A stretch of 45,330 nt of DNA from Methanobrevibacter sp. (GTDB lineage Archaea; Methanobacteriota; Methanobacteria; Methanobacteriales; Methanobacteriaceae), in contig NZ_JAFQQZ010000008.1 in the NCBI RefSeq assembly GCF_017410345.1, positions 1 through 45,330 on the forward strand. The letters run 5' to 3'. Below are positions 40,972 through 45,178 of the stretch, piece by piece. The translations under genes were made by a program, and so were the position numbers. How positions within the stretch are numbered: position 1 is the stretch's first letter; every line of letters starts with the position of its first letter. The notes under the pieces were generated by a model. It had not been told where the DNA came from. It searched no databases and saw nothing but the letters and a program-made list of their open reading frames with translations.

Positions 40972-42006
40972 TTAATTAATTTTAGCTATTACAGAAATGA
41001 TACGAGTTAAGCTTCTATGCATTTTAATCTCATACCTTTCCAATAATTCGAACCCTACATCATTGAGGAGTGAATCGATATCCAATGAATGTGGACTAGC
41101 CATGACTAAAAGTGCATCTTTTTTCATACTGTGTTCGATTGATTGAAGGAATTCAGAGAAAATTCCAGAAGCACCTTCACCACAGGTAGTTGTAGATATT
41201 CCATAAGGAGGATCGGTTACAACCGCATCGACTTCCTCATACATTTCAAGTTCACGAACATCAACAACATGAGTCTTATAGTCAGTGACTCCAGCATATT
41301 CCAAATTGGTTGCTGTACCCTTTTTCATTTTCCAGTCAATGTCACAGCCAATGACCTTACATCCTATAAGCCCTGCTTCAATAAGGATTCCTCCAGTACC
41401 ACAGAAAGGATCAAGCACCAAATCTCCTTCCTTGACTCTAGCCAAATTAACCATGCATCTTGCTAATTTCGGGCTCATGCATCCAGGATGGAAGAATGGT
41501 CTTTTATGAGGTTTCATCTCTTCAAAGTACTTCTTATTGAGCTGATATTTGCCAAAACACAAATAAACATCATTATGATGAGCTACAACTCTAATAAATG
41601 ATTTAGGATTAGATAGATTAACTGAAATGTCATCTGTATTAGTTAATATCAAATGTCCCACTTTTCTTTCAGTAGCTACAGTATCTATTTCAGTATTGAA
41701 GCGTTTTACTCTAACTGCAAAGTTTTCATCAATAAATTGAGACCAGTCAATAGATTTAACAGTTTCTTCCATAGCCTCATAATCACATTCATCTATCAAT
41801 TGATGAACTTCATGAGTATAGCCTAATCTTCTAACGAATATCTTATAGTAATCATCAAAAACATTTTCATCAAGATTTCTTAAAATGACCAATCCTGGAC
41901 AAACTATTTCCATTTCTGTCTCAATCTCTTCTATTTCCAAGACAGCTCTAAGTTCAGCCAATGGCAGTTTGTCATGTTCCTGAGATAAGATTAATAATAA
42001 ATCCAT
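40972..42006 (-). CDS. tRNA (guanine10-N2)-dimethyltransferase (Trm-G10/Trm11 family)
   Basis: 344 residues: a THUMP-containing N-terminal half (1-160) and a Rossmann methyltransferase half with the SAM loop LDPFCGTGGILIEAGL (198-213), CDIDW (221-225) and the amino-methylation motif TDPPYG (264-269). HPGCMSPKLAR (173-183) is also family-typical. It should methylate G10 of tRNA using SAM, in the cytoplasm. The frame extends to 42081 across AT-rich sequence, but ATG 42006 with GGAGAT seven bases upstream is the real start. A related DNA or rRNA N6-methylase is a less likely alternative. Confidence 0.85.
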   Translation of the reverse strand: MDLLLILSQEHDKLPLAELRAVLEIEEIETEMEIVCPGLVILRNLDENVFDDYYKIFVRRLGYTHEVHQLIDECDYEAMEETVKSIDWSQFIDENFAVRVKRFNTEIDTVATERKVGHLILTNTDDISVNLSNPKSFIRVVAHHNDVYLCFGKYQLNKKYFEEMKPHKRPFFHPGCMSPKLARCMVNLARVKEGDLVLDPFCGTGGILIEAGLIGCKVIGCDIDWKMKKGTATNLEYAGVTDYKTHVVDVRELEMYEEVDAVVTDPPYGISTTTCGEGASGIFSEFLQSIEHSMKKDALLVMASPHSLDIDSLLNDVGFELLERYEIKMHRSLTRIISVIAKIN

Positions 42007-42068: not shown

Positions 42069-43304
42069 TTATAATAACCAAATTTTAGCCAATTCCCTTT
42101 TATGAATAGCTGGCAATAATGATTGAATCAACCCTCTTTTTAAAAATTCCTTTACAAGAATTGATTGATTATCCATATCCCCATATTCAGAGATTAATTT
42201 ATCGGCCTCTTTTTCTTTTAATTTTACAAAGAAATAATCCAAATCCTCATCTGATAATGTGCAGAATGTTTTTTGAACCTTAAATTGATAGGAAAATTCC
42301 TTTAGGAATCTTTTTTCAAAATCTTTTTGATAATCTTTGAGAATATCCTGTAATATCTCTCTGTCATTTTTATCCATCCTTCCAGGACTTATAGAATTAA
42401 AACTTTCTGAATTCAAAGCATTTACAATAGCCTTTTTAGCCATTTGAACTGCTTCAAAACCTATTAAAAGACCTCCACCAGTAGTGGGTTTAAGCTGTGA
42501 AGCAGCATCACCAATAATCAATGCCCTATTTTTGTATAATTTATTGTCCTTATTGTAAATAGGGATTTTTCCTTTATACTTTTCAATTACCTCATAATTT
42601 TCATATTTAAAATCATTTTTTAAAAAATCATCCAATATTTCATTTTGCCTTTTATAATCATAAATTGAAAATAAACCAATCCTAAAAGTATTTTCATCTA
42701 CTGGAATCTGCCAAATGAATCCTGGAAACAAATCCCCATAGGCATATAAGTCCACAAATGATAAATTGTCATTTCTTTTTTCTATCCTTACCAAATATTG
42801 GCTTGCACAATAATAATTGAATTCATTTCCAATTGCTGAAGAAACAAGTGAGAGAGGCCCATCTGCACCAACAATGATTTTGGAACTTATGGTTTTTTCA
42901 GTTGAATCATTTTGAAATGTGACTTTTCCCTCCAAATCATCAATAGACACTACTTTAGAGGATAAATAGGAGCCTACACCATTTTCAATAGCCCTTTTGT
43001 ATAGGAATTGATCCAATGCAACCCTATCGATTATTAAAGCCTGGTCTTCATCTTTGGAAACTGTTAAAGAATGATTTCTGCTATGTAAAAAGGCACCTTT
43101 TGCCTTATTAAATATCAATTCTTCGGGAAACTGATTGAAATCCAATGCTCTTTTATTGATTATTCCAGCACATTGCAATGGTAAACCTATAACTTTCTTC
43201 TTATCAATTAGAGCAACCTCAATGTCTTCTTTAGCCAATTCATATGCCAAAGTAGAGCCTATTGGGCCTGCTCCAATAATAGTCACATCTACATCAAAAC
43301 TCAT
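42069..43304 (-). CDS. Geranylgeranyl reductase family flavoprotein (archaeal lipid saturation)
   Basis: 411 residues with the FAD-binding VTIIGAGPIGSTLAYELA, the PLQCAGI motif near residue 42-48 and the late GDAASQLKPTTGGGL region. These features match digeranylgeranylglycerophospholipid reductases, which saturate isoprenoid chains of archaeal lipids. The C-terminal ~80 residues are helical. Methanogens often have several paralogues, so this one could act on another isoprenoid. AGGGTAAACT precedes ATG 43304. It lies about 60 bases upstream of the tRNA methyltransferase on the same strand. Confidence 0.83.
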   Translation of the reverse strand: MSFDVDVTIIGAGPIGSTLAYELAKEDIEVALIDKKKVIGLPLQCAGIINKRALDFNQFPEELIFNKAKGAFLHSRNHSLTVSKDEDQALIIDRVALDQFLYKRAIENGVGSYLSSKVVSIDDLEGKVTFQNDSTEKTISSKIIVGADGPLSLVSSAIGNEFNYYCASQYLVRIEKRNDNLSFVDLYAYGDLFPGFIWQIPVDENTFRIGLFSIYDYKRQNEILDDFLKNDFKYENYEVIEKYKGKIPIYNKDNKLYKNRALIIGDAASQLKPTTGGGLLIGFEAVQMAKKAIVNALNSESFNSISPGRMDKNDREILQDILKDYQKDFEKRFLKEFSYQFKVQKTFCTLSDEDLDYFFVKLKEKEADKLISEYGDMDNQSILVKEFLKRGLIQSLLPAIHKRELAKIWLL

Positions 43305-43408: not shown

Positions 43409-45178
43409 TTATCTCTTGAATTTTCTGGAATGCTTTGCAAAGAGGTCATCGGGAGTTTTTTCTCCCTTATCCTTTTGATTGGCATCATCAGATTCTCCAT
43501 TATAGTGATTATAATTCTCATAATGATCATCATAGTGAGAAGCAGAACTGCGGGAAGACCTTTTTCTGGATTCTCTAGGACTCATATACTTATAATCTAT
43601 CTCACCATCACCAGAATATGCTCTTGTATGATTTGCATCATAATGTTGAGGGTTAGAACCATAATTTTGATTTCTTCTATTCTGTTTTCCATAATTCTCA
43701 TTTTGCCTATAATCTCTTTGATTATAAGAATCATGGCGATTGTCATAATGATTGGAATTATAATTATGATTGTTATAACTATCTCTTGACCTGGAATCAT
43801 GATATCTTACAGTATTATGCCTATCATCATAATCATCATAATATCTGTCATCATAGCCATCATAATGCCTATCATCATAGCTTCTATCATATCCTCTAGA
43901 GCCATAAGATTGATTAGGATTGTCTCTAAAGCGATTATCATTAGATGGTTTGAATTTGATATTGTCTCCCATGTCTTCCATAGCTTGATTTATGGTAGTG
44001 TCAAACTCTGCATCGGAGATATCATCATAAACATCCTCATTCTTATCACTTGAAAATGGATTCAATCTTGAAAGTCTGGATTTCTTTTCAATCTTAGGAG
44101 GCTCTTCAATATCCTCAGCATATTGGTTTCTGCCATGAATATAATCGTCATAATCTCTTTGAGCATCTAAATTATTTTGATGGAATTCCTCATAATTATT
44201 TGCAAAATACTTGTCAGGATTTCTTGAATAAGAGTCCTTAATAGCTCCTGAATACTGATGATGATGTGAATCAGGCCTTCCTCTAGAGCCATATTGATCA
44301 TTGTAACTCGCTCTAGAAGCCCTATTGTCCCTATAATCCATATCCCTTGGATAACTTCCATAATCATCATAGCCATCATAATTATCATAATAGCTATCAT
44401 TAGAACCATACTCATAACCAGAATTGTAATTGGAATTATAATTAGAGTTATAATTAGAATTATAATTAGAATTATAATTCGGATTGTTTCTAGAGTTTCT
44501 TGCTTTGCGTTTTATATCCCTAAGCTGTCTTTTACGCTCTTTAGCATCAACCAATTCCAAATCATCCAAGTCTTCCATACGCCTATAATGACCTGGTTCC
44601 TGATGTGGTCTTATTGGATTGAAGTCATCATCATAAACATTGCGATATCTTAAATGAGTTCCTCTCATATTCTCAAATATGATGTCTTCAATCTTTTTAG
44701 GACTGGAAACATCCTTTAATTCCATTTCCTTTCCATCATATGCACTATATAAGGTTATTGTACCTACTGAAAATATTTTTCCAAAAAGGCTTTGGGAACG
44801 GCTAACATCCTGAATAGTGTTGAAAGGCATGTAGTTTTTCTTTTGCAAGAGTATGCCCTTTTCAACGATCACCCTACTTTCAGTGATTGTATACTTGATT
44901 GAAGTCCAGATTAAAAGCTTTAATATGATGTATAGCAATACAATCATTATTAGGATAAACACAGCTATTGCAAAATAGCGTGTCATTGGAACTTTGGTTG
45001 ATTCAATCAAATAGACATTCATGTTCCCAATGTATTGAATTCCAGCAGAATACAAGAAAAATAAAAATCCCAACACAAACATTGATATTAAAATTCCTTT
45101 TGAATAGACAAAAATATTAGGTTGTGCCTCGTATAATATTTTTTCATGAAATTCTTCTTTTTTATCTTTACCAAACAT
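43409..45178 (-). CDS. Membrane PH-domain protein with long Asn/Tyr/Asp/Arg-rich disordered tail
   Basis: 589 residues. Two membrane helices (about 28-48 and 68-91) are followed by a bacterial-type PH domain (about 92-170: YTITESRVIVEKGILLQKKNYM, DVSRSQSLFGKIFSVG), as in YdbS/YdbT-like proteins. A basic segment (211-229) leads into about 350 residues of low-complexity sequence dominated by Asn, Tyr, Asp, Arg, Ser and Gly. It starts with a perfect NYNS array (236-252) and includes DDRxYDxYDDRYYDDYDDR stretches. The tail is cytoplasmic if the PH domain is. No ribosome binding site is visible before ATG 45178. The tail's function is unknown. Confidence 0.85.
   Translation of the reverse strand: MFGKDKKEEFHEKILYEAQPNIFVYSKGILISMFVLGFLFFLYSAGIQYIGNMNVYLIESTKVPMTRYFAIAVFILIMIVLLYIILKLLIWTSIKYTITESRVIVEKGILLQKKNYMPFNTIQDVSRSQSLFGKIFSVGTITLYSAYDGKEMELKDVSSPKKIEDIIFENMRGTHLRYRNVYDDDFNPIRPHQEPGHYRRMEDLDDLELVDAKERKRQLRDIKRKARNSRNNPNYNSNYNSNYNSNYNSNYNSGYEYGSNDSYYDNYDGYDDYGSYPRDMDYRDNRASRASYNDQYGSRGRPDSHHHQYSGAIKDSYSRNPDKYFANNYEEFHQNNLDAQRDYDDYIHGRNQYAEDIEEPPKIEKKSRLSRLNPFSSDKNEDVYDDISDAEFDTTINQAMEDMGDNIKFKPSNDNRFRDNPNQSYGSRGYDRSYDDRHYDGYDDRYYDDYDDRHNTVRYHDSRSRDSYNNHNYNSNHYDNRHDSYNQRDYRQNENYGKQNRRNQNYGSNPQHYDANHTRAYSGDGEIDYKYMSPRESRKRSSRSSASHYDDHYENYNHYNGESDDANQKDKGEKTPDDLFAKHSRKFKR
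44420..44485 (-). repeat. 12-base tandem repeat encoding NYNS units
   Basis: Five to six copies of a 12-base unit (TTAGAATTATAA on +, minus-sense AATTATAATTCT type) encode consecutive Asn-Tyr-Asn-Ser. The copies differ by only a few bases, so the array is expandable. Confidence 0.85.

Follow-up and report, generated by a model that had tools for sequence, protein, structure and literature searches.

The window considered in the current analysis is a stretch of 45,330 nucleotides from contig NZ_JAFQQZ010000008.1 of a Methanobrevibacter of the ruminantium group, the relatives of which are mostly rumen Methanobrevibacter. It raises the question of what role a very long and compositionally biased tail could play on an archaeal membrane protein with a pleckstrin homology (PH) like domain. 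The literature searches carried out yielded no publication on this PH-tail protein and no known function for it. A sequence-only reading of the window had described the tail as prion-like or condensate-like, with paired Tyr and Arg residues as stickers. The membrane PH protein and its tail rich in Tyr, Asn, Asp and Arg are borne out by the current analysis, but not the glycine enrichment, the sticker pairing or the prion-like character. The features of the locus are collected in Table 1.

Table 1. Coordinates of the features at the PH-tail locus (positions in the window; residues of the PH protein)
Feature	Position	Strand	Basis or remark
Gene of membrane PH protein with disordered tail	43409..45178	-	one open reading frame, 589 residues
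Long helix 1 (transmembrane), residues 27-56	45011..45100	-	AlphaFold model and hydrophobic sequence
Long helix 2 (transmembrane), residues 64-92	44903..44989	-	AlphaFold model and hydrophobic sequence
bPH_2 (bacterial PH-like) domain, residues 91-167	44678..44908	-	Pfam PF03703, E=2e-17
Cytoplasmic tail (predicted side), residues 176-589, mostly disordered, Tyr/Asn/Asp/Arg/Ser/His-rich	43412..44653	-	composition, AlphaFold
Short motif FNPIRP, residues 186-191	44606..44623	-	counterpart [FY]EPITP in the genus holding M. smithii
Island 1 (conserved), residues 200-230 (RMEDLDDLELVDAKERKRQLRDIKRKAR), modelled helix 212-230	44489..44581	-	alignment, AlphaFold
NYNS low-complexity repeat, spacer	44420..44479	-	12-base tandem repeat
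Island 2 (conserved), residues 312-348 (RNPDKYFANNYEEFHQNNLDAQRDY), modelled helices 312-319 and 329-348	44135..44245	-	alignment, AlphaFold
Island 3 (conserved), residues 386-412 (ISDAEFDTTINQAMEDMGDNIKF), modelled helix 389-403	43943..44023	-	alignment, AlphaFold
Asp/Tyr/Arg repeat (DDRYYDDY area), spacer	43817..43881	-	24-base tandem repeat
Putative docking peptide at the C-terminus, residues 574-589 (...PDDLFAKHSRKFKR), modelled helix 576-588	43412..43459	-	class-wide conservation
Geranylgeranyl reductase family gene, directly downstream	42069..43304	-	TIGR02032, E=3e-59; conserved neighbour in 50/67 loci
THUMP RNA methyltransferase gene (tRNA guanine-N2 type)	40972..42006	-	TIGR01177; conserved second neighbour in 56/67 loci

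The attachment of the tail to a two-helix PH module, as had been proposed, is upheld by the assignment of the bPH_2 family in Pfam (63.6 bits against a curated cut-off of 22 in the profile search) and by the AlphaFold model, in which a PH-like barrel follows the two long helices. The PH fold is further supported by the model of a relative of 312 residues, which matches the bacterial PH domain structures 3dcx and 3hsa over 84 residues with E-values of 3e-4 to 1e-3; a search of the PDB by sequence revealed no relative. A genome search identified this gene as the single bPH_2 gene of its own genome. An identity with PuhB (NF040894) has been rejected, since the score of 29.8 bits lies below the equivalog cut-off of 110. 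As the protein would cross the membrane twice, its PH domain and tail should lie on the same side as the N-terminus, and the lysines near the N-terminus suggest that this side is cytoplasmic.

The tail is long, as had been noted, and comprises about 410 residues (approximately 176-589) rather than about 350. Compared with a background of 146 neighbouring proteins of the genus (37,249 residues), it is enriched in Tyr (12.1%, 3.4-fold), His (4.7%, 3.1-fold), Arg (10.4%, 2.8-fold), Asn (12.6%, 2.5-fold), Asp (14.1%, 2.1-fold) and Ser (10.1%, 1.7-fold). Five of the six residues reported as abundant are therefore indeed enriched, while the sixth, Gly, is depleted (4.7%, 0.71-fold), and Ile, Leu and Val are 4 to 9-fold rarer than in the background. 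The best stretch of 100 residues contains 81 residues of Tyr, Asn, Asp, Arg, Ser and Gly, as against at most 51 in any background protein. The mean hydropathy of 0.276 relative to the charge-hydropathy boundary of 0.426, together with pLDDT values mostly of 31-37 in the spacers that separate the conserved islands, is consistent with a disordered tail. The NYNS and DDRYYDDY patterns named in the earlier reading are true tandem repeats. When the tail was used as a query against its own genome it matched itself alone. Long Ile/Met-rich open reading frames run over the tail on the + strand (43430-43789 and 44294-44653); these have been rejected as genes and are regarded as Ile/Met shadows of NAY codons.

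The tail is interrupted by three conserved islands. In the alignment of 14 members of the genus, 28 tail columns are invariant, 27 of which fall in islands 1 and 2 and the C-terminus, island 2 having 14 such columns. Island 3 is nearly invariant in the genus, and a similar motif, FDxT[IM]xxA[MI], is seen in several other genera. The predicted helices of the tail fall on the islands, where pLDDT rises to about 45-70 from the low values of the spacers. The contrast in conservation between islands and spacers is somewhat circular because the island borders have been partly drawn from that alignment, and the modelled helices offer a partly separate line of support. The dN/dS ratios are 0.02-0.08 for the transmembrane and PH part, 0.06-0.17 for the islands, which come near the folded part in this respect, and 0.18-0.50 for the spacers. 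The last range indicates that the tail is translated and constrained, and on these substitution rates the spacers appear to be fast-evolving yet under purifying selection.

A short peptide at the very end of the tail is conserved throughout the class Methanobacteria, with the consensus hh-x-[RK]-H-x-x-[KRM]-F-[KR]-[KR], also written as [VIL][ILFM]x[RK]H[FS]xKF[KR][KR]. The pattern H..[KRM]F has been identified within 40 residues of the end in 122 of 130 proteins, with the Phe 1-4 residues from the end in 102. Positions outside the search pattern are conserved as well, Lys or Arg being found before the His in 118 and after the Phe in 115 of the 122. Four of the eight exceptions have a Tyr or Asn variant (L079, L080, L086, L089); the remainder are a protein at a contig end (L140), an apparent frameshift (L148), a second paralogue (L134) and the tail-less L120. 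A helix is modelled over the peptide in the window protein and also in a relative (residues 299-311), with pLDDT of about 57 against about 30-37 around it. In L130 (G149) the open reading frame stops early and the full motif, ERHSRKFKR, occurs just downstream in another frame, so the deposited gene appears to be frameshifted near its 3' end.

The peptide appears to be specific to this family. It has been identified in none of 850 neighbouring proteins; no other open reading frame of at least 30 residues in the own genome ends in it, nor does any other real-length protein among the matches listed for 18 genomes of another genus. A docking motif shared with other proteins has been rejected after these pattern searches.

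Of the 152 genomes of the class, 143 encode an orthologue of the PH-tail gene, including all 91 of good quality, among them those of the main gut methanogens. A phylum-wide search for relatives outside the class returned the same 152 genomes and no others. The tail is kept in close relatives, where its absence would have spoken against the earlier reading, with lengths of 401-605 residues in all 17 genus members recovered. Beyond the genus the composition shifts, being Asn/Gln-rich or Asp/Glu-rich depending on the genus, or a Lys/Glu linker in the shortest tails. The lengths are about 90-235 residues in the genus holding M. smithii, about 83-196 in Methanosphaera and mostly 22-82 in a short-tailed branch of the tree that includes the thermophiles. 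The class-wide range is thus about 22 to 605 residues, apart from a single value of 12 in a protein with an uncertain start, and the tree requires four or more switches between long and short tails. The peptide is retained whether the tail has about 22 or 605 residues, and with the four variants counted beside the 122 the architecture is one of a variable linker closed by a conserved terminal peptide. L120 lacks both the tail and the peptide altogether, and hence the function is not indispensable everywhere.

These observations suggest a possible role of the protein as a membrane-anchored tether or scaffold, in which a disordered arm carries a conserved terminal docking helix for a specific partner, and we place the probability of this reading a little above even. 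It is built on the anchor, the domain, the islands, the terminal peptide, the purifying selection and the conserved neighbourhood, all of which are drawn from sequence comparison. The two transmembrane helices and the PH-like domain would anchor the protein to the inner membrane face, the arm, of species-dependent length, would extend into the cytoplasm, and the short helix at its tip would dock on the partner. In Methanobrevibacter sensu stricto, the long arm may present three more helical docking sites between the Tyr/Asn/Asp/Arg-rich spacers and thereby form a multivalent hub. Binding of proteins by the helices and the service of the spacers as tethers are inferred. Condensation at the membrane is a possible addition to this tether reading and not its best-supported core.

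It is unlikely, in our estimate, that the spacers act chiefly as condensate scaffolds, with Tyr and Arg as the stickers through which the protein would cluster or phase-separate at the membrane, and with docking helices that would only bring in clients. Tyr makes up 8-17% of nearly all the long tails, and of the major residues it varies least among them (CV 0.25); within the clade, no other common spacer residue is kept as well as Tyr (0.77) and Arg (0.72). Where five close relatives depart from Tyr (12 cases), Phe takes its place in 8 and Asn or Asp in none, as selection on stickers would predict, and the sum of Tyr and Phe per tail is 57-63 in 9 of 10 relatives, staying near 60 although the length shifts. 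However, Tyr and Arg generally change slowly, and both serve to anchor alignments. The pairing of Tyr with Arg, earlier called a typical sticker arrangement, is accounted for by composition alone: 22 Tyr of the window tail have an Arg within 3 residues as against 23.8 +/- 3.6 in shuffles, and there is therefore no special arrangement of the two. The spacing of the aromatic residues (gap variance) is likewise the same as in shuffles, with no clustering. The prion-like label fails on the commonly used threshold of at least 30 Gln and Asn in 80 residues, the maximum in the window protein being 20; this threshold is reached by 25 of 100 relatives. Further, in related families that retain the terminal peptide the tail shrinks to a few residues, and the number of stickers shrinks with it. 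The description as a condensate-like low-complexity tail hence stands for the Tyr-rich disorder kept in the genus, but the tail is not solely that, as it also contains the helical islands and the C-terminal peptide. A combined reading, in which a class-wide membrane scaffold would organise some process at the inner membrane through the terminal docking helix and the Tyr/Arg spacers would condense or cluster it there in the gut Methanobrevibacter, is likewise considered unlikely.

A mostly neutral growth of the spacers, in which slippage in an AT-rich genome expands NAY codons and the product is tolerated as the terminal peptide alone matters, is considered improbable. The spacers do expand through lineage-specific tandem repeats of such codons; the four residues that they encode (Asn, Tyr, Asp and His) make up on average 40% of the tails against 16% of the transmembrane and PH part, and the tails are longer where the flanking GC is lower (Spearman -0.41). 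Against this, the spacer dN/dS given above indicates constraint, aliphatic residues are strongly depleted, Tyr is retained as Tyr or Phe, and the GC content of the tail in the window gene equals that of its folded part (0.33 and 0.31). The least probable of these alternatives is a C-terminal helix acting as a second binder of membrane or nucleic acid, a basic amphipathic segment that folds onto the membrane or holds RNA or ribosomes with the tail as a loop, since its net charge of +2 to +4 and hydrophobic moment of 0.3-0.76 would suit such a role but it is of low mean hydrophobicity (-0.4 to -0.9), and the His and Phe at set positions and the flanking Lys/Arg, kept throughout the class, exceed the specificity that a lipid-binding helix normally requires.

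The gene neighbourhood is conserved on both sides of the PH gene, with the proteasomal ATPase PAN as the upstream neighbour in 47 of 67 loci, beyond the contig of the window. An obligatory partnership with the adjacent geranylgeranyl reductase is unlikely. The orthologue of this reductase is 40-51% identical where present and is missing in L071 (G038), L072 (G036) and L133 (G041), in which paralogues of about 29% identity remain; as all three genomes keep the tail and the peptide, the obligatory partnership has been rejected. In L133 the PH gene is split over two overlapping frames in its membrane and PH part, the tail and terminal peptide being open, which reflects either a frameshift in the genome as deposited or a true break. 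In some members of the genus (L045, L046 and L049) a small group of genes, including those of an alcohol dehydrogenase and an ABM monooxygenase-like protein, is situated between the PAN and PH genes.

On the upstream side, farther away than PAN, the pseudomurein cluster A lies a few genes from the PH gene in many genera. Links to SepF/FtsZ and to pseudomurein were considered among the candidates, and the PH gene is absent from the published list of pseudomurein cluster A (PMC11915815). The pseudomurein Mur ligase has as its neighbour a small membrane protein with one helix (L093:15348-15785 and orthologues; Mfer763 family, NF053641). On visual inspection the sequence of this small protein (GxxIKGNDIVPL..I...G) is similar to a POTRA/FtsQ-type domain, and a Pfam search at E 0.001 was negative.

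The presence of the gene in all good-quality genomes of the class lends the family a wider interest. The near-invariant terminal peptide is a direct handle for finding the partner. The arm, which has reached hundreds of residues in gut lineages as against about 22 to 82 in the thermophile branch, is a natural archaeal test case for the evolution of disordered tethers and aromatic stickers.

In membrane proteins of the bPH_2 family, such as the bacterial YdbS/YdbT and PuhB, a bacterial PH domain is likewise joined to membrane helices; the window protein differs from them by an added disordered tail that ends in a conserved peptide. With the FUS-type prion-like or Tyr-rich low-complexity domains the tail shares Tyr/Arg-rich disorder and well-kept aromatic residues, but it is low in Gly, rich in Asp and under the Gln/Asn threshold, has conserved helical motifs interspersed, and is part of a protein in which no RNA-binding domain has been found. 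Tethers of the ZipA type consist of a membrane anchor, a flexible linker and a terminal binding element, and the same order of parts is seen in the PH protein; the end of ZipA is a folded domain whereas that of the PH protein is a predicted helix within 16 residues, and the two are not related in sequence. FtsZ has a variable disordered linker and a conserved C-terminal peptide (PMC12607630). This architecture, a variable linker ending in a short conserved peptide, is common to both, with docking being predicted for the PH protein, which is not homologous to FtsZ, has a different peptide, and has its linker starting from a membrane PH protein.
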